Of a DNA stretch of 27,124 nucleotides, positions 4,514 to 27,124 are shown one piece after another. Position 1 is the stretch's first letter. Every line of letters begins with the position of its first letter. This DNA is from a virus. The notes under the pieces were generated by a model. That model had not been told where the DNA came from and made no database searches. It was given only the letters and a program-made list of their open reading frames with translations. The position numbers were made by a program, and so were the translations under genes. The stretch is taken from positions 1 to 27,124 of IMG/VR virus record IMGVR_UViG_3300030331_000171; one strand, written 5' to 3'.

Positions 4514-4545
4514 CTAATTTACAATAATCTAAATTAGTTATCAAA
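4514..4545 (-). promoter_or_regulatory. Candidate Bacteroidetes-type early promoter
   Basis: In the 88-base gap before the early genes the minus strand reads TTTG (4545-4542), then 20 bases, then TAAATTAG (4521-4514). This fits the Bacteroidetes sigma-A consensus TTTG (-33) and TAnnTTTG (-7) with one mismatch and suitable spacing. The expected transcription start is near 4507, giving a leader of about 15 bases before the ATG at 4492. It would drive the replication operon with host polymerase. Reporter or RNA end data are lacking, and AT-rich DNA yields chance matches. Confidence 0.5.
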
Positions 4546-11372: not shown

Positions 11373-11855
11373 TTAATTTGTATATATATAATTTGTACTA
11401 TTTGTTTCTGTATATTGTGTATATTTTACCTGCTCACTACCTACTGTTTCGCTCACTAATAATTTGCCTTGTTCTACCAAACCTTTTACTGTGCCGTGTA
11501 CACTACCTGTGTCATTTGCTACGTCTGTTTCACTAATAGGTGCTGTGTCTTCATTTAGTGTTGGTACTGTACCATTAAAACTAACTTCATATAATTCGTA
11601 TTTATGGTAACCAAAAGGTTTTAAATTTATAGCACCTGTAAATACGTTTTCTGTTGTGTTATGTGTCAAAGTAAAATCTGTATATCTTTCTCTAATTGTT
11701 TGACTTTGTCCGTATGCATATTTTACTGTGCCTGACAGATCATTAGTTAGTTTTACTAAAAATCTAATCTGCGAACTTGGTACACTTGTATCTATTCTTT
11801 TGTCTTCTGTCGTGACATAAAACGTAGCTGTAGAACCGTAAGTAACGTGTTGCAT
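11373..11855 (-). CDS. Putative structural protein, 160 aa
   Basis: A 160-residue beta-rich protein (VTYGSTATFYVTTEDKRID, IRFLVKLTNDLSGTVKYAYG, NLKPFGYHKYELYEVSFNG) ending in a polar, Tyr/Thr-rich tail. It is the first gene after a strong intrinsic terminator and has a copy of the TCTATTATATA motif only two bases before its ATG, so it appears to open a transcription unit for the 160-aa, 91-aa, LamG, 81-aa, portal and connector genes. No catalytic motif is seen; a minor head or tail protein is likely. Family unknown to me. Confidence 0.65.
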   Translation of the reverse strand: MQHVTYGSTATFYVTTEDKRIDTSVPSSQIRFLVKLTNDLSGTVKYAYGQSQTIRERYTDFTLTHNTTENVFTGAINLKPFGYHKYELYEVSFNGTVPTLNEDTAPISETDVANDTGSVHGTVKGLVEQGKLLVSETVGSEQVKYTQYTETNSTNYIYTN

Positions 11856-11857
11856 AC

Positions 11858-11870
11858 TATATAATAGAAA
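11858..11870 (-). promoter_or_regulatory. Repeated late promoter-like motif, copy 4
   Basis: On the minus strand this reads TTTCTATTATATA, then GT and the ATG of the 160-aa gene. It lies 24 bases beyond a clear intrinsic terminator, which supports its acting as a new promoter. If the TATATA part is a -10-like element, the transcript would be leaderless or nearly so. The same 11-mer TCTATTATATA occurs at 14208, 15876 and 25373. Confidence 0.5.
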
Positions 11871-11893
11871 AACGTTTAATTTATTTTATAAAC

Positions 11894-11919
11894 AAAAAAA
11901 AAGGTGGTAAAATACCACC
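11894..11919 (-). terminator. Intrinsic terminator after the tail tube gene
   Basis: On the minus strand GGTGGTA (11919-11913) pairs perfectly with TACCACC (11909-11903) around a 3-base loop and is followed directly by nine T residues (11902-11894). This is a textbook rho-independent terminator. It starts 24 bases after the stop of the probable tail tube gene and should end the capsid/tail tube transcript before the next promoter-like motif. Confidence 0.88.
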
Positions 11920-11943
11920 CTTCTTTACTTATGAAAACATATA

Positions 11944-12537
11944 TTATGTTGTAGTTACTGTTGCTGTAAACGCTGAATTGTCAAAAGGTACGTTAGTGTA
12001 GTCTGCGACAATACAAGCAGGGTAGCTTTCTTGTCCACTAAATGTGAGGTCTGAACCTGACATATCACCTAGAGCTGCACCTGATGCGTTAGTACCTGCA
12101 TTAAGCTCTAAACCATTCTCTAAACCTAAAGCGACTATAACTCTTTTACCTGATGTATTGATTTGATTTAATTCTACAAATACAATTAATTTATTTCTTG
12201 ATAAAAGTTTTATTTCGTTTCTGTCTGCTATGCTTAGTTTGTGTAGTTTAATGTTTACTGACTGGTCAAAGAATATTGTACCATTTTCTGTGCTACCTGT
12301 GATAGTTTCTGTAAATGATCCTGTACCTCTAACTAACTCGTACTTAAATAGTTCATCACCTGTACCACTACCTGATAAATCTAAGTCTGTAATAGTACCT
12401 GATGCTGGTTCTATACCTGCACCTGCGTTGTTACCATTTATAGCTGCGTCTGCGTGTTGCACAAAGTATACTGCCTTTACACCACCTACGGTGTCTCTAC
12501 AATCTAATTGTCTTCCTGTTGTTAATTCACAAGCCAT
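11944..12537 (-). CDS. Probable major tail tube protein
   Basis: A 197-residue protein opening MACELTTGRQLDCRDTVGGV, a start seen in Bacteroidetes phage tail proteins to my recollection. The middle has GTGSFTETITGSTENGTIFF followed by VNIKLHKLSIADRNEIKLL and NKLIVFVELN, the order of strands and helix typical of tube proteins. It then ends in Gly/Ser/Thr-rich strands. Placement directly after the major capsid gene and before a strong terminator suggests a highly expressed virion protein. A head decoration protein is the main alternative. Three Cys are present, at residues 3, 13 and about 178. Confidence 0.6.
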   Translation of the reverse strand: MACELTTGRQLDCRDTVGGVKAVYFVQHADAAINGNNAGAGIEPASGTITDLDLSGSGTGDELFKYELVRGTGSFTETITGSTENGTIFFDQSVNIKLHKLSIADRNEIKLLSRNKLIVFVELNQINTSGKRVIVALGLENGLELNAGTNASGAALGDMSGSDLTFSGQESYPACIVADYTNVPFDNSAFTATVTTT

Positions 12538-12552
12538 ATTTATTGTTTTAAG

Positions 12553-12588
12553 GCAGTTTAAGAGGGTTTTGATACCCTCTCTTACTGC
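12553..12588 (-). other. Long imperfect hairpin between capsid and tail tube genes
   Basis: Ten bases after the capsid stop codon the minus strand can fold as GCAGT-AA-GAGAGGGT, a 6-base loop, then ACCCTCTT-AA-ACTGC: 8 pairs including one G-T, a 2x2 internal loop of A residues, then 5 pairs. There is no long T-tract behind it (TTAAAACAATAAAT), so it is not a classic terminator. It may protect the capsid mRNA 3' end, be an RNA processing site, or attenuate read-through to balance capsid and tube levels. Confidence 0.6.
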
Positions 12589-12598
12589 AAGTTAATTA

Positions 12599-13516
12599 TT
12601 AGTCTAATCTTACTATATCTGCACCTTGTGCGTGTTGCGTACCACCCGTGAACTTAGCTACCACTCTGATATTGTCAGAACCGTCTAAGTCACCCATATC
12701 TAACATTTTAATTTCTGTGTGGTCAGAAACTAAGTCTGTTCCAAAGAATAAGTTAGATGCTTGAGCTGCACACATTTTGTTATCTACCATACCTGGACAA
12801 ACTGCAATCTTAATACCGTTAAACATTGGTCTGAAACCTTCGCCCATATTGTATAGTCTTTCGTAACCTGCTGCTGCTTGGTTAGCTAAGTAAAGTCTGT
12901 AAGACGCTACTGACATATAGATATATAAGTCTTCTTTAGTGTATACTGCTGAAGGTATTGCATTTACAAGTGCATTTAGGTCGTCATCTATACTAGCTAC
13001 AGTAAATGCTGAACCTGCACCTGCAGAGTTATCTGCTTCTACGATAGCTGTGTCATTCTCAAAGTGTCCGTTACCTGCTTGCATAAATCCTGTGAACTCA
13101 CCTGAATTTGAATCTAGTCCGTTCCAAATGCTAGTTTCTACTGAATCTGCAATAGTTGCTGAAAGGTAAGACATTACAAAAGCTGCAAAGTCGTCACTCA
13201 TTCCGTCATTGTGTCTACCTGCTTGCATTTGTGCTGCTTGCCAGTCTGCTAGTAAATCTTTTTTACAAAGATCAACGTTAATTTCTAATTGTTTTGGTGT
13301 TAAAACTCTTTCAGTTAAAGTAAGTGTACCTGCGTCAGTGAAGTCACAAGTAGCATCTTTAATAAGTCCTGAAGTAGCAACTTTAGTTATGTTTCTTTTG
13401 AACTTTACATTTTCTAGTACAGTCAAAAACTCTAAAGATTTTGATGACTTTAACGCTGCGCCAATATACTGACCTGCGTGTTCACCACTATAATTTGATG
13501 TTATTGAAAAACTCAT
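12599..13516 (-). CDS. Major capsid protein (HK97-like)
   Basis: A 305-residue protein with features of HK97-fold capsid proteins. An N-terminal arm is followed by LTERVLTPKQLEINVDLCKK and a spine-helix-like region (DDFAAFVMSYLSATIADSVE). Next comes IWNGLDSNSGEFTGFMQ, a P-domain-like DLYIYMSVASYRLYLANQ, then FNGIKIAVCPGM and ASNLFFGTDLVSDHTEIKML, with a closing FTGGTQHAQGADIV. The FNG-x-I ... NLFFGTDL segment is the most diagnostic. It follows the acidic scaffold gene and, further upstream, the protease gene, the usual head-assembly order. The hairpin just downstream suggests mRNA-level control. There is no obvious Lys/Asn crosslink signature to report. Confidence 0.88.
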   Translation of the reverse strand: MSFSITSNYSGEHAGQYIGAALKSSKSLEFLTVLENVKFKRNITKVATSGLIKDATCDFTDAGTLTLTERVLTPKQLEINVDLCKKDLLADWQAAQMQAGRHNDGMSDDFAAFVMSYLSATIADSVETSIWNGLDSNSGEFTGFMQAGNGHFENDTAIVEADNSAGAGSAFTVASIDDDLNALVNAIPSAVYTKEDLYIYMSVASYRLYLANQAAAGYERLYNMGEGFRPMFNGIKIAVCPGMVDNKMCAAQASNLFFGTDLVSDHTEIKMLDMGDLDGSDNIRVVAKFTGGTQHAQGADIVRLD

Positions 13517-13534
13517 TTTGTTATTATTTAATTA

Positions 13535-14191
13535 TTATTTATTTAAGTTATAATAAAACCTTTCTTTGCTGTTCATATTAGCATAAGGTTTTGTATTAAG
13601 TTTTGTTTCGTTGAATTTAGAAACCTCAACAGGTTTAGTTGCAGGTTCTTTAGATAATTCTACGATTTGTGATTGTAATTCCTCTTTTTCAGTAGTTAGT
13701 TCACCGTTTATGTCTTTCATTTCTTCAAGTTCTGCTGAAAGTCTTGATACGTCTGACCTTACTTCTTCTAAAAGTTCTTTAATTACTACACCTATTTCTT
13801 CAATAAGTGCGTTCTTGTCAAAGTTTTCGTTTTCTACTTCTTCTGTTTCCTCAACAGTTTCCTCTGACATTTCTTCTTCTTCTACTGCTTCAACTTCTTC
13901 TTTTTCTTCTGTCTCTTCTTCTTCTTCTTCAGTTTCTTTTTTCTCCATTGATGCTACGATACCTTCTTTTTCTACCTTGAACTCAACTCCGTCTTCTGTT
14001 TCGTAAGTTCCTACTGGTACAGGCATTGTGCTACCGTCTTCAGCTAGTATCATTACTTCTACGCCTTCTGCAAGTTCATCTGCTTTTGAAACGACAATAG
14101 TACCGTCAATAAGTTTAGCTTGAAATTCTAGGTTTAATTCTTCTTCTTTGTCTAAACCTAATGCTGATAATATTTGTTTTTTTAAATCCAT
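13535..14191 (-). CDS. Acidic coiled-coil scaffolding-like protein
   Basis: A 218-residue protein just before the capsid gene. The N-terminal 80 residues are a small beta-rich region (VEVMILAEDGSTMPVPVGTY). A nearly pure Glu/Thr/Val linker covers residues 83-122, and residues about 128-182 are a strong coiled coil (IKELLEEVRSDVSRLSAELE). The C-terminus has a conserved-looking NMNSKERFYYNLNK that could contact capsid subunits. Acidic, coiled-coil proteins at this position act as internal scaffolds and are removed by the head protease; the XkdF-like protease is encoded two genes upstream. A copy of the TCTATTATATA motif lies 16 bases before the ATG. The long antisense reading of the Glu-rich tract is an artefact. 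Confidence 0.72.
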   Translation of the reverse strand: MDLKKQILSALGLDKEEELNLEFQAKLIDGTIVVSKADELAEGVEVMILAEDGSTMPVPVGTYETEDGVEFKVEKEGIVASMEKKETEEEEEETEEKEEVEAVEEEEMSEETVEETEEVENENFDKNALIEEIGVVIKELLEEVRSDVSRLSAELEEMKDINGELTTEKEELQSQIVELSKEPATKPVEVSKFNETKLNTKPYANMNSKERFYYNLNK

Positions 14192-14207
14192 TTTTTAAAG
14201 TCTTTAG

Positions 14208-14220
14208 TATATAATAGAAT
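14208..14220 (-). promoter_or_regulatory. Repeated late promoter-like motif, copy 3
   Basis: The minus strand reads ATTCTATTATATA in the 54-base gap before the scaffold gene, 16 bases from its ATG. It shares TCTATTATATA exactly with three other gaps. It would raise transcription of the scaffold, capsid and tail tube genes ahead of the terminator at 11894. Confidence 0.5.
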
Positions 14221-14245
14221 TATTTATTTGTTGTTTGATTTTGTG

Positions 14246-14617
14246 TTATATAACCATTTTTTGTAAAGATTTTATCATAGTTTTGGCGTGAGCTTTAACT
14301 ATTTTATCGTCTGTAATTTTACGTAAATCTGTTAGTAAACCTGCAGTATCTCTACTTACTCCTAATTCTCTGATTGTTTTATCAGTTTTTTTGTACAAAC
14401 TTTCTGCTTCGTCTTGTATTTTGTCCATATCTCTAACCCACCTTATTAGATCGTCTTCTACTCTACCTATAGGTGCAAAAATAACGTCATACTTTTCATT
14501 ATGATTTATGTATCTAGAATATAATCTTTTTACTTCGTCTTGAATTGCTAGATCTACCTTTTCACCTTTAGCGTTAGATAGTATTGTGTTTAGTTTGTCT
14601 TCGTAATTTTTGTACAT
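14246..14617 (-). CDS. Helical head-module protein, 123 aa
   Basis: A 123-residue, entirely helical protein starting MYKNYEDKLNTILS. It resembles the 109-aa protein encoded at 15533-15862, which starts MYEKYQKKLESLLD. Both also share an ELG(V/I) turn followed by an L-x-DL-x-K helix near the C-terminus. The two genes flank the protease gene and are probably paralogues. Likely roles are accessory scaffold or internal head protein, because coiled-coil proteins in this slot often guide assembly. No catalytic motif is visible. It ends before a promoter-like motif and starts 2 bases after the protease stop. Confidence 0.62.
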   Translation of the reverse strand: MYKNYEDKLNTILSNAKGEKVDLAIQDEVKRLYSRYINHNEKYDVIFAPIGRVEDDLIRWVRDMDKIQDEAESLYKKTDKTIRELGVSRDTAGLLTDLRKITDDKIVKAHAKTMIKSLQKMVI

Positions 14618-14619
14618 GG

Positions 14620-15519
14620 TTATATATTGTTTCTTATGTTTCTTAAATCAGTAATATTGTTTCTGTGTTTTTTTAATATTTTTTCAAAACTACTTTTTAT
14701 ATTTTCTGCTCTTTTTATAAGTTCAGTAGCCCCTAATTCTTTAGCTTTTTTTATACCTTGCTCGGTAAATTTAATACCTTGCTCTATACTTTGTGTACTG
14801 TCTGCAAAATCAGAAAGTGCTGCTAAAATATTTTTATTAGCTTTTTTACTTGCACTTATAGCTTTATCTCTTAATTTTTCAATATCTTGAAATATTGATA
14901 ACTTAACTTTATTTATCTTACCCTCTTTTACTAATTCGTTGTATGCTTCTACTATTTCTTCGTCTGTAACTGTTTTACTCATTTTTTCCATTTTGTCTAC
15001 AAAATAACCTTCTATTGATAATCCTTTTAGTTCACCTGCTTTTATCTTTTCCCACAAGTCATTGTTTTCTATTTTCATTTTTACAAACCACGTACCATTT
15101 GGTAAGTCGTAGCCATACATTTTAGACTTGTCTTGGTCGCCTTCTTTTATCCAACTTTCTACTGTTAGTACACCTGCTACTCTGTCTTGGTGTTGGTATG
15201 TAGCTTTGTGGTGATTATTGTATTTTAGATATAGTTCGCTAGCTTTTCTTACTGTGTCCGTAGAAAAATATACGTAATACTCTGAATCTGTATTAGGGTT
15301 GTATCTAAATATTTGTTTGTTAGGTATTAGTGCAGGACTAATTAACATTCTTTTTTCTTCGTCAATCTTTGAGAATGTAAGATTGTGTTTGTCTTTACCA
15401 AAAAATACAAAATCTACTTCTATTGCAGGACTTGTTACTAAACTTATTGCGTCTATAGATAGTTCTTCATTATCGTCACTTATTACAAGCTCTGTGATCT
15501 TAGTGAGTTTTTTCTTCAT
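14620..15519 (-). CDS. XkdF-like prohead protease with helical tail
   Basis: A 299-residue protein. Residues 1-180 match the XkdF-type phage serine protease (S78-related) pattern: IDAISLVTSPAIEVDFVFF near the start, RMLISPALIPNKQIFRYN, YYVYFSTDTVRKASELYL, HQDRVAGVLTVESWI (H110), then WFVKMKIENNDLWEKIKAGE and GLSIEGYF (S168). H110 and S168 are the probable catalytic pair. Such enzymes process scaffold and capsid during prohead maturation. Residues about 185-299 form a long helical extension with an AKELGA turn similar to those in both flanking coiled-coil proteins, so it may itself help scaffold. It lies upstream of the scaffold and capsid genes as expected. Confidence 0.82.
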   Translation of the reverse strand: MKKKLTKITELVISDDNEELSIDAISLVTSPAIEVDFVFFGKDKHNLTFSKIDEEKRMLISPALIPNKQIFRYNPNTDSEYYVYFSTDTVRKASELYLKYNNHHKATYQHQDRVAGVLTVESWIKEGDQDKSKMYGYDLPNGTWFVKMKIENNDLWEKIKAGELKGLSIEGYFVDKMEKMSKTVTDEEIVEAYNELVKEGKINKVKLSIFQDIEKLRDKAISASKKANKNILAALSDFADSTQSIEQGIKFTEQGIKKAKELGATELIKRAENIKSSFEKILKKHRNNITDLRNIRNNI

Positions 15520-15532
15520 TTATTTATTTATT

Positions 15533-15862
15533 TTATGCGTCAAGGACACTATCAGCTTCTTTTTTAAACTTTTTTAAATCATTAAATAGTTTTTGTAAAT
15601 TAATATCCTTAATTGGTATTCCTAATTCTTTAGAAGCTCTTTCAATATCCCCTGCTAGTTTGTTAAAACTTTTAATTTCTGTATCTACAACAATAGCTAA
15701 TCTTTTTGCCCTTGATAAATGGACGTCCATACTGTCTTTAGCTTTTTTGATTAAATTATATAGTTTAGTTACGTCTTTTATTTTATTAAAATTTATTTTT
15801 TCAGTATTCTCTAATTTTGTGTCTAAAAGACTTTCTAGTTTTTTTTGGTATTTCTCGTACAT
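15533..15862 (-). CDS. Helical head-module protein, 109 aa
   Basis: A 109-residue helical protein (MYEKYQKKLESLLD at the start, SKELGIPIKDINLQKLFNDL near the end). It appears to be a diverged paralogue of the 123-aa protein on the other side of the protease gene. The protease tail has the same K-ELG turn in helical context. It opens the head module, 13 bases after a copy of the TCTATTATATA motif, and so is probably expressed with the protease. Function is unknown; internal scaffold or protease cofactor are the best guesses. Confidence 0.62.
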   Translation of the reverse strand: MYEKYQKKLESLLDTKLENTEKINFNKIKDVTKLYNLIKKAKDSMDVHLSRAKRLAIVVDTEIKSFNKLAGDIERASKELGIPIKDINLQKLFNDLKKFKKEADSVLDA

Positions 15863-15875
15863 AAGATAAATTTAT

Positions 15876-15888
15876 TATATAATAGATT
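15876..15888 (-). promoter_or_regulatory. Repeated late promoter-like motif, copy 2
   Basis: The minus strand reads AATCTATTATATA in the 46-base gap between the tape measure stop and the 109-aa gene, 13 bases from the ATG. It would start a head-module transcript (109-aa protein, protease, 123-aa protein, scaffold, capsid, tube). Confidence 0.5.
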
Positions 15889-15908
15889 TAAATTAGTTTT
15901 ATTTGATT

Positions 15909-17381
15909 TTAGATAGTTGCTCTACGTCTAATGTTTGCTAGTTTGTTTTGACTATTTGTTATATCGTCACTTACTACAAACGCCCTTGCAGGTTCAAAGT
16001 CAGGTGTAGCACCACCTAAAGTAAATGCACCACTTACCATTTGGGGTGCAGGAGCTTGTTGAGTAGCTGAAGGTACAGAACCACCACCACCACCACCACC
16101 TGGTACGTCTGTAGCTAGTATTTTTCTTACGTTAGCTAAACCACCTGCTATGATTGCTGCACCTGTTACAAATCCTGCTACACCACCCTGTGCAAACGCT
16201 TTGTTAGCACCTGCAAAAGTATCTATAGTTGCTTGTGCTATTGCTAGTGCTTTGTTTTCTCCTGCTAAGTCACCTAATGCACCTGCTAGTGAGCTAAATG
16301 CTTCTAACTCTGCTTCTTTACGTTCTTTAGCTAGGTCTATAATTTCTTGATTTGCGTCTGCTTCTTCACGTTTTAGACTAATTGTGTTTGTTAGTTGCTC
16401 GCTTTCAAAACCTGTAACTTGTGCTATTATACCTTCACGTTCTGCTATTGCTTCATTTAGTGCTATTTGTAAGTCTACGTTTTCTTTGTTTTTGTCTAAT
16501 TCCTTCTGCGCTGCTTCTACTGCTATGTCTGCGTTAGCTAACATAACTTCTTTTTGTTTTTCTAGTAATGCTCCTAAGTCTTCATTTGCTTTTATTCTTT
16601 GTTCAAATGTTAAACTTTCGTCGTCTCTAACCTGTCGTAAACTTTCTGCTTGTGCATCAAATTGTTCTAATAATATACGATTTCTGCTTTCTGCTAATTG
16701 TGCTGACTTGTCAAGTTCTACGTTTGCTTTTGCTGCGTCTAATGTATTTTTAGTAAAGTTTTTAATTTTTTCAGTTACCTTAGTTATTGCGTTGTCCATT
16801 TGCGCAGTTTCTACAACGTTGCCAGTAACTGTGTCTTTCAGGTTACCTAGTGCAGTCTTTGCTGTTTCGCTAGCTTCTTTAAAATCACCTTTAAATACTT
16901 GGAACAACGCCTTACCTAAACCACCTACACCTTCTATAAGGTTTTTAACTCTAGTCATAACTTCTACGCCTAGCGTTCTACCAAATGATAGTGCGTTTTG
17001 TACTGCTTCACTACCAAAAAGTTTACTTATAAAACCTGTTGCTTTACCTGTGTTTTCTGATAAGAAGTTAAAAAACTTGTTAAATGTTATGTTAAGAAAC
17101 TCGGTTGCTGTGTTAAATATATCTACTACTTTTTGATTTTGTCCTAATACATCTTGAAAAACCTCAAATGCTTTGTTTAGTATAAATACAATACCTGTAG
17201 CTTTTGCCAACGCTTTAAAACCCACAGATAACTTTCTTATACCTGATTCACTTTCTTTTGATGCTTTTGACAAATCGTTTGTTTGGTCTACTGCGTCAGA
17301 AAGATTGTCAGTTAATTTGTCTACGTCTTTAGCTGCGTCATCTATATTACTATTTATTTTTAAGTTAATTTCTTCTGCCAT
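15909..17381 (-). CDS. Tail tape measure protein
   Basis: A 490-residue, mainly helical protein. The N-terminus has INLKINSNIDDAAKDVDKLT, the usual tape-measure opening, and a hydrophobic segment follows at about residues 57-75. Long Ala/Glu/Lys helices fill the middle. The C-terminal part has ALAIAQATIDTFAGANKAFA, a Gly/Ala-rich hydrophobic stretch (GGVAGFVTGAAIIAGGLANV) and a seven-glycine run before a flexible tail, all common in tape measure proteins. These set tail length and are ejected with the DNA. At about 1.5 angstrom per residue the length suggests a tail of roughly 70 nm. Unusually, the head genes follow it. Confidence 0.85.
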   Translation of the reverse strand: MAEEINLKINSNIDDAAKDVDKLTDNLSDAVDQTNDLSKASKESESGIRKLSVGFKALAKATGIVFILNKAFEVFQDVLGQNQKVVDIFNTATEFLNITFNKFFNFLSENTGKATGFISKLFGSEAVQNALSFGRTLGVEVMTRVKNLIEGVGGLGKALFQVFKGDFKEASETAKTALGNLKDTVTGNVVETAQMDNAITKVTEKIKNFTKNTLDAAKANVELDKSAQLAESRNRILLEQFDAQAESLRQVRDDESLTFEQRIKANEDLGALLEKQKEVMLANADIAVEAAQKELDKNKENVDLQIALNEAIAEREGIIAQVTGFESEQLTNTISLKREEADANQEIIDLAKERKEAELEAFSSLAGALGDLAGENKALAIAQATIDTFAGANKAFAQGGVAGFVTGAAIIAGGLANVRKILATDVPGGGGGGGSVPSATQQAPAPQMVSGAFTLGGATPDFEPARAFVVSDDITNSQNKLANIRRRATI

Positions 17382-17383
17382 AA

Positions 17384-18229
17384 TTAAAATGTTTGTAATG
17401 TTCTGTTAGTATATAAGTGTACACTTGAATACCAGTTAATATTTACGTTTGTAAGTCCTGTAACTTGTATGCTTATAAAAGGATCGGTAACTGCTACAAA
17501 TCTAGGAGTGGTGACTATTGATAAACTACCGTCTGCTATTGTACTTATTGATTGAGTAAATGTAGGGTTAAATCCATTGTCTGTTTTACAAGCACCTACT
17601 AGCTTATAGTAAATGTATTGTCCTGCTGTACCACTAGAACCACCTGTGCATAAAGCTATAATATGTGCTTCAAATCCTAATATAGAGTTGTTTTGTATTT
17701 CTACTAAGTTTGTACCGTCATTTTGTGTAGTTAAATTTGTAGCATCTGTGCCTGTAGTTTGCCCTGATAGTTGCGTAAATGACATTTGATTTGAACCAAC
17801 TTCACTACCGTCATATAAACCACCACCTATAACTACTTCGCCATTGTGTAACCCTAGACCGTGTGTACCACCTATTATACTTGAATTGCTAAGATTAGAT
17901 TGTATTTTGTTATTTTCACCTGTAATAAATATATTTTTGTTTATACCGTCTGTAGTGTTTTTTTGACCTGTAATAAAACTAGCTGACGTGTTAGTGCTAG
18001 TAGTGTTATTTTTACCTGACACTTTATTGTCTAAATTTTTACCTCTTTTTTCTATTAAACTATTAAACCTATAAGCATAACAAGTACCACTAACCGTGTC
18101 GTAATTATAACCATATTCTTGACATATCTTTTGATTTGCAAACACATCATTTGTACCGTCAGTAAAAATTACTTCGCCAGTTCTTTTAATACTTTTTGGT
18201 TTTATTTTAAATCCTTTTTTAAACTCCAT
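17384..18229 (-). CDS. Fibre-like protein with beta-helical repeats, 281 aa
   Basis: A 281-residue protein. The first 65 residues include CQEYGYNYDTVSGTCYAYRF, a small Cys-containing region. Residues about 70-150 hold repeated Asn/Gly/Ile phrases (ASFITGQKN, NIFITGENNKIQSN, SSIIGGTHGLGLHNGE, VVIGGGLYDGS) like the left-handed beta-roll of YadA-type adhesin heads. The C-terminal part is beta-rich. This layout suits a trimeric tail fibre or tip adhesin. Its ATG overlaps the hub stop (TAATG), implying coupled synthesis, and the tape measure gene follows two bases after its stop. Confidence 0.6.
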   Translation of the reverse strand: MEFKKGFKIKPKSIKRTGEVIFTDGTNDVFANQKICQEYGYNYDTVSGTCYAYRFNSLIEKRGKNLDNKVSGKNNTTSTNTSASFITGQKNTTDGINKNIFITGENNKIQSNLSNSSIIGGTHGLGLHNGEVVIGGGLYDGSEVGSNQMSFTQLSGQTTGTDATNLTTQNDGTNLVEIQNNSILGFEAHIIALCTGGSSGTAGQYIYYKLVGACKTDNGFNPTFTQSISTIADGSLSIVTTPRFVAVTDPFISIQVTGLTNVNINWYSSVHLYTNRTLQTF

Positions 18230-20883: not shown

Positions 20884-22303
20884 TTTGTATAACTCTGTTT
20901 TTACTGCGTTCTATTTCTAAAGTGTACTGTAAAAGATCGTCATTTGCTCTAGTTTGTTTTGTATATGTGCTAGATGTTATTGTAACTGGTTGTACGTATT
21001 TGTTTATATATCCTTCGCTACCGTCTGTACTAAACTCATTTAATATATATACTTCAGGACTTGTAAATAGTTCTTCTAACCACGTTGCTGTGCTTTCTGT
21101 TACAAAGTCTGTATTAAGTGTTAAACGTTCTTTAGCGTTAGTATTAAATGTTTTCTGACCTCCTTTATATCCGTGTGTCATAAATACGCTTTCGTTATAT
21201 AATCCTGATATTTGTTTGTAGCTTGTTCTTTGCGTTTCTACAGTCCTTACATTACGTTTAGTAAAAGAGTAGTAGTCCCATGCACCTAGTCTGTTTAACC
21301 ACGTCAATCTTATCTTTTCAAATCCTTTACAATCGTCATCTATTATGTTAAATGTATATTCTTGTGAAATTGTTTGTGATAAACTGTTCCTAGTTTTTAT
21401 TGTATATGATTTTGTGTTAGCATTAAAACTGCTGTGTGCTTTTATATTAGCAACACCACATCCTATAAATATTAGTTTGTTATTAGCTTCGTTTACAAAA
21501 CTACGTTTACCACCGTTTGCAGGTGTGTTATCTATAGTAATTGTTGCTAATTGCGTGCCTGTACCATTTATATCGTTGAATAATTTAATTACTACGTCTT
21601 CTATTTGACTATCTCCACTACCACCTATAGAAAAGTCTAGATTATAGTCACTAAAAAATGCTAGTGTGTGATAATCATTGGAACCTATATCTATAGTAGT
21701 AGGACAGTTAGTAAGGAACTTAGCATCTGTGTCGTTCATTATATAGTTGTTAGCGTCTAGATTATAACCGTAGTTACCACTTGCATCTAATGCTATAATG
21801 TCTTCGTGTTGTACTGTGCCGTTGTATATAATAAATTCGTCAGTTGATACTAATGAAGTTGGGTTTACTGATACTTCACCAGTTACTGTGTCAGAGTGTT
21901 GTATTTTAAATATAACTTTAAATATTCTTACTGACTTTTCGTTAGTACAAAACTTGTCTATAGTATGTATGCTATGTGGTGTAGTGTCACTAAATGCAGT
22001 ACTTTTAAACTGTGAACTTTCTGTAGGGTTTGCTGAACCTACAAAACTACCTAAGTTATCGCTTTCTACGTATGATTGTAAAATAGTGCTTAGATCAAAT
22101 ATACCAACACCTTTACTATTTGGTGTAGCTTTTAATGTAGCTATCTTATCACCTGCAGACAAAGATCCTTGTTGTCCTAAAAATACTTCTGCTATATATT
22201 TAACGTTAAATTTACTAGTTACTAATACTAAGTCTTGTACTGTAAATATAATATTTGAGTATGCAGGTACTAGTCTATATTTTGGTTTCTGTGTTATTAT
22301 CAT
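20876..22303 (-). CDS. Tail structural protein, 475 aa
   Basis: A 475-residue beta-rich protein. The N-terminal two thirds contain strands with a Gly/Asn-rich middle. The last third has a well-patterned segment: KIRLTWLNRLGAWDYYSFTK, ETQRTSYKQISG, GGQKTFNTNAKERLTLNTDF, ATWLEELFTSPEVYILNE and YTKQTRANDDLLQYTLEIE. The WLNRLGAWDYYSF phrase is familiar to me from tail proteins of Bacteroidetes phages. It overlaps the hub gene by 8 bases and the gp10-like gene by 4. A distal-tail or baseplate ring component adjoining the hub is the likely role. Confidence 0.6.
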   Translation of the reverse strand: MIITQKPKYRLVPAYSNIIFTVQDLVLVTSKFNVKYIAEVFLGQQGSLSAGDKIATLKATPNSKGVGIFDLSTILQSYVESDNLGSFVGSANPTESSQFKSTAFSDTTPHSIHTIDKFCTNEKSVRIFKVIFKIQHSDTVTGEVSVNPTSLVSTDEFIIYNGTVQHEDIIALDASGNYGYNLDANNYIMNDTDAKFLTNCPTTIDIGSNDYHTLAFFSDYNLDFSIGGSGDSQIEDVVIKLFNDINGTGTQLATITIDNTPANGGKRSFVNEANNKLIFIGCGVANIKAHSSFNANTKSYTIKTRNSLSQTISQEYTFNIIDDDCKGFEKIRLTWLNRLGAWDYYSFTKRNVRTVETQRTSYKQISGLYNESVFMTHGYKGGQKTFNTNAKERLTLNTDFVTESTATWLEELFTSPEVYILNEFSTDGSEGYINKYVQPVTITSSTYTKQTRANDDLLQYTLEIERSKNRVIQNA

Positions 22304-22821
22304 TTTATTACTGCTATATTGTCTTTAAAGTCTTCCTTAAATGCTAACGCTAATTCACGTGGCATATCTTTTAGTGCTAGTCTAACTGGTGTTGTAAAGA
22401 AACTTATACCTTGTATACCGAGTGACTTAATCTTACGTGCTATCAAATACTGTAAACTTTTTCTACTCATAAATCTACCTTTTTCGTCACGTGGCGCTAT
22501 ACCTCGTCTTACTATCCATTTGTCTAATGCACTTGCAGGTGGTTGTAAGTTCTTATATCTAAAAGGACTTTGTCTACGTGTGTTGTTTATGTCCTTAAAG
22601 TATCGTCTTTTGTTTTTACCACTTACACCCTTGTCCATAAACTTACCGTGATCTGCCATAGTAAATTGTACTGTAAAACCTTCTGCTGTTTTTAGAACCT
22701 TAAATTTGATAGAATTAAGTAAACTACCTGATACTACCTTGTCACCCTGTTTAAGGTTGTTCTTAGCTTGTCTTACAATCTTACGACCTACTGACTTTAA
22801 ATAGTTTTCTACGTTACGCAC
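22300..22821 (-). CDS. HK97 gp10-like neck/tail completion protein
   Basis: A 173-residue basic protein. The N-terminus (VENYLKSVGRKIVRQAKNNL then GSLLNSIKFKV) and the DHGKFMDKGVSGK phrase resemble HK97 gp10-like neck or tail-completion proteins, which have a matching S-L-x-x-S-I and F-x-x-x-G pattern. A Pro-containing loop and two C-terminal helices follow. These proteins join the tail to the head connector. It overlaps both neighbours by 4-8 bases. Confidence 0.65.
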   Translation of the reverse strand: MRNVENYLKSVGRKIVRQAKNNLKQGDKVVSGSLLNSIKFKVLKTAEGFTVQFTMADHGKFMDKGVSGKNKRRYFKDINNTRRQSPFRYKNLQPPASALDKWIVRRGIAPRDEKGRFMSRKSLQYLIARKIKSLGIQGISFFTTPVRLALKDMPRELALAFKEDFKDNIAVIK

Positions 22822-23281
22822 CTGCTACAAATAATTCTAGTTTAACTGTATTAGAACCACTATCTACCATTATACTTTCTAAATCGTGTGTTGCTGTTAA
22901 TGTATTAGAAGAATCTAGTACACCAATAGAATCGTGTGGTGTACCCATCATAAATGTTTTACCAGCTTCTAAAAGAATTGAAACACTTTCGTCTGCGTCG
23001 TTGTTATTTTCATCTGCATCTATTTGCATAGATAAGGTTACACTATTAGTGGAATCTAAATTTGTTACTCTTATATATTTAGTGTCTTGCATATCTATTG
23101 CACTATCTGAACTAGACACTGTAGCTTTTGTTAATAATACTGTAGTGTCATTGTCAGCAGGTATTGTTACTATACGTTCCATAACCTGTTCTATACCTGT
23201 AATTGTTAATTGATTTGTAGAACCTCTAACTGATCCGTTAAGGGTTACACTTTCTGTTAATGTTACTGTTAAATTTGCCAT
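22814..23281 (-). CDS. Small beta-rich virion protein, 155 aa
   Basis: A 155-residue protein made of beta strands rich in Thr, Ser and Val (ANLTVTLTESVTLNGSVRGS, TVLLTKATVSSSDSAIDM, YIRVTNLDSTNSVTLSMQID) with an Asp/Asn-rich loop near residue 90 (DADENNNDADES) that could bind calcium. No Cys. It could be a tail decoration, tube-associated or neck protein; the family is unknown to me. It overlaps the gp10-like gene by 8 bases and follows the basic two-domain gene, so it is part of the tail/neck operon. Confidence 0.6.
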   Translation of the reverse strand: MANLTVTLTESVTLNGSVRGSTNQLTITGIEQVMERIVTIPADNDTTVLLTKATVSSSDSAIDMQDTKYIRVTNLDSTNSVTLSMQIDADENNNDADESVSILLEAGKTFMMGTPHDSIGVLDSSNTLTATHDLESIMVDSGSNTVKLELFVAGA

Positions 23282-23291
23282 TGTTATTTAT

Positions 23292-24062
23292 TTATTTTTT
23301 TGTACTTTTTGGATGTTTCTTTGGTAGTAAATCGTAGTCAGTAGTATATTTAGGGTTTTGTGGTCTACCATTCTTTACTAAATATAAATATGCGTTCACG
23401 CGCGCAAACGCCCAACGTGAAGGTGATTTTATACGTGGACTATGTGACGTGTTAAACGCACCTAGACCTCGTTGAAATACTGCCTTTAATTGTCCTACTG
23501 TTACTCCGTAACCTAATTTCTTCTTATATCTCTCGTTAAAGTCATCTGACTTTTTTTGTAATGTCTTTAAATCTTGTTTGCTTACTTTAGCACCTCTGCT
23601 TGTGCTTGCGTCACCTTTAGCTGTACCCTTACCTTTTGGTCTTGGGTTTGGGGTTTTAGACTTAGGTGCTTTAGGACTTTTTCTTACTCCACCTCGTTCG
23701 CCTATTTCTGCAAGTTTCTGATCTATCTGTTCTAGCTTTCTTATTGCCCACTCTACTCCACTTGTTCCTCCCCAAGCGTCATACATTAGCCCTCCACAAC
23801 CTTCGTCATAAGGTACGTCTTTGTGTTGTTGATGTCTTTTAAAACTAGCCATACGTGCTATAGTTTCTCTACTTATCTTTTCTCTACGAGCTAATTGTCC
23901 TGCACGTGTCCAACCTACTCGTGTGCCACAAGTTGTGCCTTTTTCTTCTTTGTATTTAATTGCTCTTTTTGCGTTATTGCTAGCTGCTTTTGGGTAATCG
24001 TTATAAGTCTCTAATTTAACAACGATTGCACGCAGCTTTGTCATTACAGTTGCATATTTCAT
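23292..24062 (-). CDS. Basic two-domain phage protein (DUF5824-like C-terminus)
   Basis: A 256-residue basic protein with two recognisable segments and a Pro/Lys/Ser linker. The N-terminal one (about residues 20-115) has SNNAKRAIKYKEEKGTTCGT, RVGWTRAGQLARREKISRET, ARMASFKRHQQHKD and then AWGGTSGVEWAIRKL, a phrase found in many phage structural or head-maturation proteins. The C-terminal one (about 190-245) has GVTVGQLKAVFQRGLGAFNT and SPSRWAFARVNAYLYLVKNG, resembling DUF5824. The role of both is unknown; they recur near protease, capsid or portal genes in other phages. Here the protein lies among neck/tail genes. A 54-base gap precedes it without the TCTATTATATA motif. Confidence 0.6.
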   Translation of the reverse strand: MKYATVMTKLRAIVVKLETYNDYPKAASNNAKRAIKYKEEKGTTCGTRVGWTRAGQLARREKISRETIARMASFKRHQQHKDVPYDEGCGGLMYDAWGGTSGVEWAIRKLEQIDQKLAEIGERGGVRKSPKAPKSKTPNPRPKGKGTAKGDASTSRGAKVSKQDLKTLQKKSDDFNERYKKKLGYGVTVGQLKAVFQRGLGAFNTSHSPRIKSPSRWAFARVNAYLYLVKNGRPQNPKYTTDYDLLPKKHPKSTKK

Positions 24063-24116
24063 AACTAACTTTTGGTGGTATTAATGTTATTGTAAGTTTT
24101 CCTATTCTAAATTTTA

Positions 24117-24611
24117 TCATTTTCCTATCTGTGTTGTGGGTTGTGGTATATTGCAGCTCTCAAAACTTTGTTCTACTATGACTGGTAAAGTAAACACCCA
24201 ACCTGTTACTGAATTATCAAATCTCTCTGTGAAGGGTTCAAGCGTAAAACTATCGTCTACAAAATATTGTGGTATATCACCGTGACTAGCTTCGTAGTGA
24301 TTAAGACTTTTTCCGTGCTTAAATGTGCTTATAATATCTGTACACATACTAAGGCAATCACTTAATACTTCTTGTTCGTTGCTTTCGTCAGGTTCTACTA
24401 AATCCATAATAAATATTTGAAAGTTAAATATAAACTGTGATTTACTAGCTGTGACGTTTACTGGGTTAATATGCATTAGAGGGAATAAAGTGTTTTTCTC
24501 TAAGTCTATTTCAAAGATGTCACCTGATGTAACAGTTTTGATCTGAAAATGATTGTTACCCAGTTGCTCTAATGTGTCTACTAAATTATTATACGTCTTG
24601 TCGTTTACCAT
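24117..24611 (-). CDS. Putative tail terminator/neck protein, 164 aa
   Basis: A 164-residue alpha/beta protein (DIFEIDLEKNTLFPLMHINP, QFIFNFQIFIMDLVEPDESN, QEVLSDCLSMCTDIISTFKH) ending in FDNSVTGWVFTLPVIVEQSF and a short polar tail. The pattern of a strand pair, an LSDC helix and a final GW-x-F-T-L-P-V strand resembles tail terminator/completion proteins that cap the tail tube. It overlaps the frameshifted chaperone ORF by 23 bases and is followed by the two-domain basic gene. The assignment is by fold-like pattern and context. Confidence 0.5.
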   Translation of the reverse strand: MVNDKTYNNLVDTLEQLGNNHFQIKTVTSGDIFEIDLEKNTLFPLMHINPVNVTASKSQFIFNFQIFIMDLVEPDESNEQEVLSDCLSMCTDIISTFKHGKSLNHYEASHGDIPQYFVDDSFTLEPFTERFDNSVTGWVFTLPVIVEQSFESCNIPQPTTQIGK

Positions 24612-24849
24612 AATTTGTGTTTTGTGTTGTGTTTAAGTCTGTTTCGTAACTTAACCACGTTAGACATTCATATAAACTAAGTTTTGTAATCCTGTCTAAA
24701 TTTACTATCTCACCATTTGTTAGTCTATACATTACGCCAAACCAACCCCACTTCTTTGCGAATTGTTCATCAACTGTTGCCTCGCCTTCTTTAACTTGTC
24801 CGTTAAATACAACTGCAAAATTTTCAATAGTTCGCTTGCGAAAGTCCAA
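24589..24849 (-). CDS. Frameshift extension of tail assembly chaperone (T part of GT)
   Basis: An 86-residue frame with no ATG at its beginning; it opens at a TTG directly after a run of nine T residues. It overlaps the chaperone G gene by 118 bases in the -1 frame. Its second half (KKWGWFGVMYRLTNGEIVNL, ITKLSLYECLTWLSYETDL) looks like a tail chaperone T domain. It is best read as the end of a G-T fusion made by -1 frameshifting on T9, giving about 260 residues (174 of G plus 86). Independent translation from TTG is possible but lacks support. Confidence 0.65.
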   Translation of the reverse strand: MDFRKRTIENFAVVFNGQVKEGEATVDEQFAKKWGWFGVMYRLTNGEIVNLDRITKLSLYECLTWLSYETDLNTTQNTNYGKRQDV

Positions 24850-25370
24850 AAAAAAACTAATGCCTGCTGAACTTCTTGTGCTTTCATCTCTAAAAACTTT
24901 CTAGCTCTAAGTCTCATTGTACTACTGTCGTACGCTTCTATAGAATAATACTTACCTTCTGTTTGTGTAATAGGTCTGTATAATATTGCTACTATGTTAG
25001 GCATATTCTTTTCTATACCGCCTTTAATGTAGTGCTCTATGTCTGCGTATTCACCTAAAGTTATACGTTCTAAGTCAGGTATAAAACCATACTGATCGTT
25101 ACCTACTTTTATGACTTGTTTAAATTTACTGTTTTTACTAGTCTGTAGCTTTGCAATTACTCTTAAAACTTTTGTTACGTCTTCTAAAGTCAGTTGGTTT
25201 ATTAATTCTTTAGGCATATCTGTCATTAGGTTTATCATATCCTGTGACTTTTCTATTTCGCCTTTGTTTTCTGACTGAATCAGTTTTATCCAAGTTTCTA
25301 AAGTTACATCACTCCAATTCTTAATAGTAAATTTATGCTGCTTGTCGTCTTTAGTAACTTTAATTCGCAT
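24732..25370 (-). CDS. Tail assembly chaperone G-like protein
   Basis: A 212-residue protein with a small beta-rich start (RIKVTKDDKQHKFTIKNWSD), then helices (LETWIKLIQSENKGEIEKSQ) and a long C-terminal helix that ends in NNSQRSGVGLA. The layout matches tail assembly chaperones that wrap the tape measure protein during tail assembly. Codons for L171-V-F-F-W span a nine-T run; slipping back one base there joins the frame of the downstream 86-aa ORF, as in lambda G/GT. A TCTATTATATA motif sits two bases before its ATG. Unusually, it directly follows the terminase gene and lies about 8 kb from the tape measure gene. Confidence 0.65.
   Translation of the reverse strand: MRIKVTKDDKQHKFTIKNWSDVTLETWIKLIQSENKGEIEKSQDMINLMTDMPKELINQLTLEDVTKVLRVIAKLQTSKNSKFKQVIKVGNDQYGFIPDLERITLGEYADIEHYIKGGIEKNMPNIVAILYRPITQTEGKYYSIEAYDSSTMRLRARKFLEMKAQEVQQALVFFWTFASELLKILQLYLTDKLKKARQQLMNNSQRSGVGLA
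24848..24856 (-). other. T9 slippery run, probable programmed -1 frameshift site
   Basis: On the minus strand GTTTTTTTTTGG is read GTT TTT TTT TGG in the G frame and, after a -1 slip on T TTT TTT, continues TTG GAC TTT in the T frame. Both frames encode plausible chaperone ends: the G frame closes in a GVG tail, the T frame in a WGWFG domain. Confidence 0.65.
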
Positions 25371-25372
25371 AA

Positions 25373-25385
25373 TATATAATAGAAA
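25373..25385 (-). promoter_or_regulatory. Repeated late promoter-like motif, copy 1
   Basis: The minus strand reads TTTCTATTATATA followed by TT and the ATG of chaperone G. It lies in the 107-base gap after the large terminase gene. A short CCCT-TAT-AGGG hairpin (25431-25441) earlier in the gap is too weak to call a terminator. The gap otherwise holds only A/T-rich sequence. Confidence 0.5.
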
Positions 25386-25477
25386 TTTAGTTTATTTAGT
25401 TTAAAAATGTATATTTGTTTATCTTGTTTCCCTATAAGGGTTGTCTACTCTTTTAAATATCTAAGGCAGCCCTTTTC

Positions 25478-26680
25478 TTATTGTACAAAGTATTTACCTG
25501 CGTTAGGGTTGTCTAAATGATAAATAACATTATATCTAATACCGTCTATTGCGTGGTTATAATTATCTACATATAATTTAGAACCTTTGTCTGCGTATAC
25601 ATAGTTGTTAAGCTCTTTGACTATATTTACACTTTCAGGACTTACCACTAGCTCAAAGTCTTGCATACGAGTTACACCACTTTCTATAGTGCCTTTTTTT
25701 ACAGGTCTTATATTTACTCCTTTGTGTCTAAGGTCTTCTATTAGTCTAGGTTCTGCGCTATCTGCTACAATTAGTTTGTTACCTACTCTGTCAAGTATAA
25801 TCTTTGCTAGCTCGTGTGTCTTTAGTCCGTTTTTATATATGTGTTCGTGTACATATAATTTGTTCTTTGTTTTGTCAATAGCTACTTCTGTTAAGCTGTC
25901 AGGATCAACAGAAAACCCAAAGTCCATACCACAAGATGTTTGTAAGTTGTCAGGGTTAAATTTACCTATTGACCAGTTTTCAAATACTACACCTTCAGCT
26001 TTGTCTAACCACCCACCTAATATATTATGATTGTATTTCTTTATATTGTTTTTGCGTATAGCTTGTATACGATCTAAAAAACTTTGTGATAGGTTTTGTT
26101 TATTGTCTCTGTAGGTTGTGTGAATATAACAAACATTGTCTTTGATACCATTGTAACTAGGTGGTACACCTCTTTCTTCAAAGAATCGTTTATATATCCA
26201 ATGCTCTTTTGTAACTGGGTTTAGCACTAATATAATTCTATTTTGTACTTTCTTTTCTCGTATACTTAAATCAATAGTATCAAATGTGCTTTCGTCTATT
26301 AATTCTTCTGCTTCATCAAGTACCCAACAAGAAATACCTTGTAAACTCTTTAAACTTGCAGTTTGGTTACCTGCTGACGTTTTTATACCCCTAAATAGTA
26401 TGTCGCTACCATTTGCTAAGTTTACTACTTCAGACTTGTTTATGTCAAATATATTCTCAAATCCTAGTAAACTGATCTTTTCTAAAAATTCAGGTATTAT
26501 AGATAAGTGTGCTGAAACCATTGTATAACGTGTAAACAGTACCCTTATGTTTTGTGACATAGTAAGTAATGTAAGAAATACTGTTACTGCAAAAGACTTA
26601 CCTGAACCACGTCCACCTGTTATGATATAATACCTACAGTCCGATTGAAATAGTTTTTGATATTTATTGTTCAGTTCCAG
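25478..26680 (-). CDS. terL: Terminase large subunit
   Basis: The packaging motor ATPase/nuclease. The first ATG (26560) lies after the Walker A motif, so the true start is upstream. The frame is open back to a TAG at 26686-26684 and contains only ATT (26683) or CTG (26680) as possible starts; no ATG, GTG or TTG occurs. From CTG the protein has 400 residues: ELNNKYQKLFQSD, Walker A GGRGSGKS (22-29), Walker B CWVLDEAEE (D122, E123), then the nuclease acidic residues in GMDFGFSVDP (D253), IVADSAEP (D307) and HAIDGIRY (D379). This is the Terminase_3 layout. The start overlaps terS by 17 bases. A rare start codon, coupling from terS or a sequencing error could explain the missing ATG. Confidence 0.92.
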   Translation of the reverse strand: MELNNKYQKLFQSDCRYYIITGGRGSGKSFAVTVFLTLLTMSQNIRVLFTRYTMVSAHLSIIPEFLEKISLLGFENIFDINKSEVVNLANGSDILFRGIKTSAGNQTASLKSLQGISCWVLDEAEELIDESTFDTIDLSIREKKVQNRIILVLNPVTKEHWIYKRFFEERGVPPSYNGIKDNVCYIHTTYRDNKQNLSQSFLDRIQAIRKNNIKKYNHNILGGWLDKAEGVVFENWSIGKFNPDNLQTSCGMDFGFSVDPDSLTEVAIDKTKNKLYVHEHIYKNGLKTHELAKIILDRVGNKLIVADSAEPRLIEDLRHKGVNIRPVKKGTIESGVTRMQDFELVVSPESVNIVKELNNYVYADKGSKLYVDNYNHAIDGIRYNVIYHLDNPNAGKYFVQ

Positions 26681-26927
26681 AATCTACAAAATTTATTAAC
26701 GGTAAGTGTAAACTATCGTCATTTGTAGTTACGTCTACTCTTTGTTGTGGTTTACCGTAAAAGTATTCAAAGTATAATTTAACTGACCATTGTTCTTTTT
26801 TCTCTAAACCTTCTTGTAGAGCTCTAAGTGCTAAGTCATTAAAAGGTGTTAGTTTTTGTATTAGCTTTTGTTCTTCTGCTTTTGGTTTGCGTCCTGCGCC
26901 TTTTCTTTTACCACCGTGTGTGTTCAT
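26664..26927 (-). CDS. terS: Terminase small subunit
   Basis: An 87-residue protein opening NTHGGKRKGAGRKPKAEEQK, the basic Gly/Lys-rich start often seen on Bacteroidetes phage small terminases, followed by two helices (ALRALQEGLEKKEQWSVKLY, FEYFYGKPQQRVDVTT). TerS binds the packaging site and loads TerL onto DNA. It directly precedes and overlaps terL. The length is short for the family (often 120-180 residues), so it may be a minimal form. The closest promoter-like motif is 31 bases before the ATG. Confidence 0.75.
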   Translation of the reverse strand: MNTHGGKRKGAGRKPKAEEQKLIQKLTPFNDLALRALQEGLEKKEQWSVKLYFEYFYGKPQQRVDVTTNDDSLHLPLINFVDSGTEQ

Positions 26928-26958
26928 TTTGAAATAATTTGATTAATCAAGTCTATAT

Positions 26959-26971
26959 TATATAAGAGAAA
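26959..26971 (-). promoter_or_regulatory. Variant late promoter-like motif before terS
   Basis: The minus strand reads TTTCTCTTATATA, differing from TTTCTATTATATA by one base. It begins just after the stop codon of the NinB-like gene and lies at the border between early and packaging/structural genes. This is where a first late promoter is expected. Confidence 0.4.
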
Positions 26972-27124
26972 CTACTTGAATTCATTTGGTGGCATTAATA
27001 TTACGCCTAAGTCATTTTGCGCCCAAATACGTATTTCTTCACAATATAAAGTGAAGTCTTCTGTTGTTAAGTTACTACTACGATCAGGTATAAACATATT
27101 TTTTAAATGCTCGTGCATTTCGTA
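26972..27124 (-). CDS. NinB-like recombination protein, C-terminal fragment
   Basis: The final 50 codons of a gene entering from the right edge. They read HEHLKNMFIPDRSSNLTTED, then FTLYCEEIRIWAQNDLGV and a closing LMPPNEFK. The pattern HLK-x2-F ... S-x2-LTT-x-(E/D)F-x-x-Y-x-E-x-I-x-x-WA-x-x-LG(V)-x-(I/L)P-x-P-N-E is typical of the C-terminus of NinB-like or related phage recombination proteins. The N-terminus is outside the window, so family membership is a partial call. It ends the early module that lies to the right. Confidence 0.6.
   Translation of the reverse strand, partial: YEMHEHLKNMFIPDRSSNLTTEDFTLYCEEIRIWAQNDLGVILMPPNEFK

Follow-up and report, generated by a model that had tools for sequence, protein, structure and literature searches.

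The phage record IMGVR_UViG_3300030331_000171 of IMG/VR, analysed here over its whole length of 27,124 bases (the window), carries in front of several late genes a repeated 11-base element, TCTATTATATA, for which sequence comparison strongly supports an assignment to a phage-specific class of late promoter. More precisely, we conclude that in a marine flavophage group the repeat very probably serves as the -10 element of a bipartite late promoter, and that this promoter would be read by a phage-encoded sigma factor resembling the extracytoplasmic function (ECF) type. A first-pass annotation of the window had proposed such a promoter class and compared it to the late promoters of T4. The class finds strong support: about 160 non-redundant sites show strand and intergenic bias, their initiator is conserved, the motif switches in concert from one relative to another, and a sigma-like gene is present in every near-complete relative tested. 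The T4-like detail is not supported, the promoter being bipartite.

A repeated element before late genes

The recognisable genes of the window all lie on the minus strand. An exact search recovered the four minus-strand copies of TCTATTATATA that had been annotated (11858–11868, 14208–14218, 15876–15886 and 25373–25383), against 0.03 copies expected on this strand under a third-order Markov model; the annotated starts were correct, while the ends lay 2 nucleotides (nt) too far for an 11-mer. As had also been claimed, the exact copies sit in true gaps: all four are in intergenic DNA, which makes up 3.1% of the window, and no exact copy was found within genes or on the plus strand anywhere in the window. 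We likewise found the one-mismatch copy reported before terS (TCTCTTATATA, minus strand, 26959–26969) and the strong terminator said to precede one copy, which is the copy at 11858 (stem 11896–11926, z -4.8). With up to one mismatch to TCTATTATATA allowed, the window has 9 matches where 2.7 ± 1.7 are expected; two lie inside genes (5110, plus; 21825, minus) and two are near-palindromic partners of real sites. The elements and genes concerned, with promoter, start and gene assignments as predicted and protein lengths in amino acids (aa), are the following.

25373–25383, minus: late promoter core TCTATTATATA, with TATTAT as the -10 hexamer, before the chaperone-G-like gene; site kept in 124/144 orthologous loci
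25394–25403, minus: upstream (-33) block TAAACTAAAT of the 25373 promoter, from the relatives' consensus
25370, minus: putative transcription start, identical to the A of the chaperone ATG (leaderless), from the conserved initiator
15876–15886, minus: late promoter core TCTATTATATA before the 109-aa gene
15897–15906, minus: upstream block TCAAATAAAA of the 15876 promoter
14208–14218, minus: late promoter core TCTATTATATA before the scaffold-like gene
14229–14238, minus: upstream block TCAAACAACA of the 14208 promoter
11858–11868, minus: late promoter core TCTATTATATA before the 160-aa gene, past a terminator; the third base beyond the core, 11855, is the A of the ATG
11879–11888, minus: upstream block TAAAATAAAT of the 11858 promoter
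11896–11926, minus: intrinsic terminator directly upstream of the 11858 promoter
26959–26969, minus: variant late promoter core TCTCTTATATA before terS; exact TCTATTATATA here in many relatives
26980–26989, minus: upstream block CCAAATGAAT of the terS promoter, the weakest among the five
478–1014, minus: ECF-like sigma factor of 178 aa that would read the late promoters (PHROG, Pfam region 4, fold, conservation)
4514–4544, minus: host-like (Bacteroidetes -33/-7) promoter TTG-N20-TAAATTAG, heading the sigma-containing operon; similar layout in relatives
24732–25370, minus: chaperone-G-like gene, behind the 25373 promoter
15533–15862, minus: 109-aa gene, behind the 15876 promoter
13535–14191, minus: scaffold-like gene, behind the 14208 promoter
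11373–11855, minus: 160-aa gene, behind the 11858 promoter
26664–26927, minus: terS-like gene, behind the 26959 promoter

Relatives were fetched by means of the capsid protein (69 loci) and TerL (80 loci), with the sigma factor as an additional query; the first set comprised 149 IMG/VR loci (1.52 Mb). Genes were called by a simple longest-open-reading-frame method. TCTATTATATA occurs in the 149 loci in 172 coding-strand and 14 opposite-strand copies, compared with 1 copy per strand for the reversed-motif control. The first-pass annotation would have the motif recur in related phages without being equally frequent inside genes, and this is what we observed. The chaperone-like gene has an exact copy at its start codon in 124 of 144 loci, and 173 of the 176 coding-strand copies in the 149 loci and the window are wholly intergenic, with only 4.6% of the sequence being intergenic DNA. 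Most relatives have 4–5 copies per whole record, all on a single strand (reversed control, 0 or 1).

Ranking k-mers by strand bias was dominated by coding words and was discarded; a de novo 11-mer scan of whole genomes was dominated by A-rich words and was replaced by a comparison anchored on start codons. A scan of genome contigs with the motif pattern returned mostly single matches in AT-rich metagenome-assembled genomes (MAGs), probably by chance, the only informative ones being the MAG-binned phage contigs PAPR01000004, PAPR01000049 and PBGL02000003. Contigs of this phage group, PAPR01000004.1 (36,104 bp; loci L186/L190/L203/L211) and PBGL02000003.1 (L183/L200), are found in MAGs labelled Pseudooceanicola and Euryarchaeota, which looks like binning contamination.

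Architecture of the predicted promoter

The anatomy of the sites was derived from 50 sites sharing <75% identity and from an enlarged set of 163 sites, 128 of them with an assignable ATG; non-redundancy was set at 75% identity and not by phylogeny. The annotation had seen no -35 element, which proved wrong: a conserved block lies 11–20 nt upstream of each core, with the consensus T[CA]AA[AC]TAAAT at fixed spacing 20 to 11 bases upstream of the motif, and its A's at -18 and -17 from the motif are each present in 127/128 sites. In 71 sites the ATG stands 6 nt or more from the motif; here the third base 3' of the motif is an A (62 sites) or a G (7 sites) with two exceptions, and the base before it is T or C in 60. 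We read this pair as the -1/+1 pyrimidine-purine initiator. Numbered from the +1 that we infer from this conservation, TATTAT spans -11 to -6 and the upstream block -33 to -24, the spacer between TMAAMT and TATTAT being 16 nt. It is this upstream block, with T[CA]AA[AC]T near -33, that gives the promoter its bipartite form; instead of the single -10 element without a -35 of the T4 type, the sites show a -33 to -24 block with AA in 127/128 cases.

The distance from motif to ATG ranges from 2 to 48 nt; it is never 0 or 1 nt, and exactly 2 nt in 38 of the 128 sites. Where the ATG stands 2 nt past the motif, its A coincides with the predicted start and the mRNA would therefore be leaderless, and in the window this would apply to two late mRNAs, starting at 25370 for the chaperone gene and at 11855 for the 160-aa gene.

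In the terS leader (26928–26956, minus) and in relatives, a recurring dyad, TTGA-N4-TCAA, followed by TTCAA, was observed between promoter and ATG. Its sequence varies and its complementarity is often kept (ATTGAATAATCAAT, CTTGATTAATCAAA, AGTTAACT); the dyad may form a 5' hairpin that can pair in two ways, or may serve as an operator.

Concerted motif switching and the candidate sigma factor

We aligned the sequences upstream of the same late genes across 33 genomes, anchored on orthologous start codons. Most late sites of one genome have a common motif, and between genomes the sites change together. The motif types include TCTATTATATA, TACATTATATA, TCTATTACATAA, TATATACTWTA, CCCTTTATATA, TTTATATTTACTAA, TTTTATATTTTATA and others, and none of the late types lined up has TAnnTTTG, the Bacteroidetes housekeeping box, at -7. 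Promoter similarity was then scored solely for pairs of non-orthologous sites, such as a chaperone site from one genome and a scaffold site from a second one; late sites score 18.4 versus 10.8 for other genes. Over 31 genomes, promoter similarity correlates with sigma identity (rho 0.655) and not with capsid identity (0.03), although two of the three late sites compared flank the capsid gene. Given capsid and chaperone, the partial correlation between promoter and sigma is 0.35 (permutation p 0.001) in a partial Mantel test, which does not fully remove shared ancestry. Genome pairs with capsids >70% but sigmas <40% identical have a promoter similarity of 11.5, near the background of 10.8, and those with capsids <55% but sigmas >50% identical reach 16.6. 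A Mantel run on the 15 genomes with the window's TerL agreed in direction (p 0.027); the 31-genome run replaced it. Packaging and capsid modules appear to have been exchanged between lineages; in a set of records (G014–G024, G026–G029, G033, G013 and G035), capsids are up to 85% identical to that of the window and no window-related TerL was detected (phmmer, E 1e-5).

The product of 478–1014 is likely the late-promoter reader, an ECF-like two-domain sigma factor with region 4, as judged from the following. The protein has weak matches to sigma families (PHROG; Pfam region 4). In its family, Sigma70_r4/r4_2 is matched by 17 of 30 members at E<0.01 and region 2 by just 1 of 30 at the same threshold. 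The AlphaFold2 model of the 178-aa protein (predicted local distance difference test score 79) consists of two helical domains with a loose linker; it has structural matches along its whole length to SigL, AlgU, SigW and sigmaE, with a domain arrangement that is not fixed in the model, and sigma factors, many of the ECF type, account for nearly all of the matches listed. The model superposes on region 4 of E. coli sigmaE at 2.6–3.0 Å over 68 residues. The small size and the two predicted helical domains thus agree with the ECF layout of sigma2 and sigma4 only, and the family matches together with the sigmaE superposition provide the region 4 homology. A candidate with region 4 fits recognition of the -33 block.

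The fetched loci contain 115 open reading frames of this sigma family, commonly 2–3 kb upstream of terL. A homologue is present in 24 of 27 further records, including all near-complete ones, with two in one record; the three records without a homologue are fragments of 13–19 kb. In G035 (the record of L223), two clearly different family members lie near the record's ends (698–1252 and 29148–29708). A tblastn search with the window sigma against named phages gave no match. The sigma gene stands near the end of a gene run whose head bears the host-type promoter 4514–4544, with one mismatch to TAnnTTTG; a TTG/TAnnTTTG promoter occurs in about half of the relatives, mostly a few kb upstream of the sigma gene. 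A scan for E. coli consensus promoters (73 sites versus 60 in shuffles) was discarded. No T7-type RNA polymerase (PF00940) was matched in 32 records, though control genomes also gave no signal.

The cultured Nonlabens phages P12024S and P12024L (NC_018271, NC_018272) resemble the window in having a related TerL (62% identical for P12024S), a sigma-type gene upstream of terS and late-type sites; they differ in the -10 sequence, CGTTAATATA. P12024S gp33, encoded upstream of terS, passes the Pfam cut-off for sigma-70 region 2 (PF04542) and is detected by the hidden Markov model of the window family at E 1e-4, being just 23% identical to the window sigma; in the phage collection, gp33 is found in P12024S and P12024L only. 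TCTATTATATA is absent from P12024S, which instead has CGTTA exactly 12 nt before six ATGs (179, 3031, 5412, 23961, 25201 and 26802), with AAC 16–17 nt further upstream in sites counted by eye. These sites fit the usual ECF promoter form, AAC-N16/17-CGT. In the window group, AA(A/C)T is retained at -31, but TCTATTAT takes the place of CGT; in F. psychrophilum, a CGT -10 box has been taken as ECF-type (PMC9723704). Because of the kinship with P12024S and the host-type promoters, the hosts of the window group would be Bacteroidetes.

Alternative readings and relation to known systems

Several observations weigh against recognition by this sigma factor and against leaderless late mRNAs. The window protein scores 2 bits too low for the Pfam region 4 gathering cut-off and gives no Pfam match to region 2, and the Foldseek E-values of its model are weak (best 6e-3). 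Promoter type correlates at 0.644 (partial 0.31) with the sigma-linked chaperone gene, near the value for sigma, and therefore the statistics alone leave room for some other product of this module. In flavobacteria, few mRNAs are leaderless (5.5% in F. psychrophilum, PMC9723704), and F. johnsoniae transcripts are mostly leadered (PMC6847099).

Specificity could thus come from another module-encoded phage factor, such as an activator working with the host sigma, the sigma-like protein being otherwise employed; this would suit the chaperone correlation and also the small genes, of no assigned function, that lie between sigma and terS in P12024S. We consider it unlikely, however, given that the -33 block, 16-nt spacer, -10 element and purine start have the shape of direct sigma recognition, that the P12024S sites match the ECF form, and that near terS no predicted transcription factor other than the sigma was found. 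Less probable still is recognition by the primary sigma of the host, with the motif as a variant of the host-type promoter: an AT-rich -10-like box in an AT-rich genome is compatible with it, but the motif has no TTTG, where the host consensus is TTTG / TAnnTTTG (PMC6847099), a separate TAnnTTTG-like promoter heads the early operon, and the motif switches among genomes with closely related capsid genes, which a host sigma would not explain. We give next to no credence to a translation-initiation or mRNA element, as might be suggested by a motif that often adjoins the ATG (at 2 nt in the 38 non-redundant sites counted above), because this distance varies, few genes per genome carry the motif, and the -33 block and initiator are fixed relative to the motif and not to the ATG. 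Equally implausible is a dimeric repressor site, for which a handful of terS-upstream copies are perfectly palindromic (TCTATTATATAATAGA) but most lack a downstream inverted half-site, and which does not accord with the orientation bias of 172 versus 14.

In the preferred reading of a late promoter recognised by a phage sigma factor, host RNA polymerase with a host sigma would start the early operon at 4514–4544, and the gene near the operon's end (478–1014) would provide the ECF-like sigma. Under its control the core polymerase of the host would turn to TMAAMT-N16-TATTAT(ATA) promoters, which precede terS, the scaffold and tail chaperone genes, those for head and maturation functions, and the post-capsid gene. 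Transcripts would begin at the conserved purine three bases past the motif, so that the chaperone and 160-aa late mRNAs would be leaderless. Within the reach of sequence comparison, the motif, its two-block shape, position and strand and its concerted switching with sigma divergence are established; from these we infer initiation at the motif, the exact start, reading by the 478–1014 sigma and the timing.

T4 late promoters have the sequence TATAAATA and no -35 element, and they depend on gp33 and the clamp. They share with the window group a phage sigma-like factor (gp55) and an AT-rich -10 element, but the window group has a conserved -33 block. The gp45 clamp, gp33 and gp55 are described in PMC2988020 and PMC7892883.

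Phage sigmas with their own late promoters are already known, the nearest being those of phages 7-11 and phiEco32, as described in PMC8948821. As in these phages, the window combines a sigma gene with a common promoter-like motif before late genes. The phage 7-11 sigma, SaPh711_gp47, uses late promoters of the form GTAAtg-(16)-aCTA, and the likeness extends to the presence of region 4 in the phage sigma, to late promoters of two blocks 16 nt apart, of which several stand before late genes, to the use of host core RNA polymerase and to host-type promoters for early genes. The two systems differ in promoter sequences, phage group and host phylum, and 7-11 is experimentally proven whereas the window system comes from comparison; promoter–start codon fusion, seen in the window group, is not mentioned for 7-11 in the passages of that source consulted here. 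In phiEco32, gp36 recognises tAATGTAtA promoters, with starts 6–8 bp past the element, and turns host RNA polymerase to middle and late genes; a diverged sigma in a related phage goes with a different consensus, like in the window group. Unlike the window group, phiEco32 has single-element promoters, and gp36 has no region 4 homology according to the same source.

A literature search that covered few subscription papers found no comparable report of a phage sigma with late promoters in Bacteroidetes phages, and none of late-type promoters in P12024S/P12024L. What is new is the host phylum and phage group, how many sigma/promoter variants a single group contains, that these are independent of the capsid module, and the predicted promoters fused to start codons in hosts in which leaderless mRNAs are a minority. 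Tentatively, and with somewhat less than even confidence, the group may represent a natural library of about ten co-evolved sigma/promoter pairs that swap between similar structural modules, with start-codon-fused promoters yielding leaderless key late mRNAs. If true, late translation would differ in its leaderless mode from the mostly leadered host mRNAs, which could be tested directly in hosts without Shine-Dalgarno sequences. The concerted changes of motif and sigma would offer a set of pairs for studying the joint change of a sigma and all its promoters, and the system would supply an early/late transcription programme for abundant, hardly studied marine Bacteroidetes phages whose hosts have a very unusual promoter code.

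Finally, a run of nine T's (GTTTTTTTTTGG) was observed at 24840–24860 (minus) towards the end of the chaperone-like gene, which is overlapped by a following frame, 24589–24849. This run is likely the programmed frameshift site of a tail-assembly chaperone; at least six T's are found there in 137 of 145 relatives, mostly as GGTTTTTTTTT.

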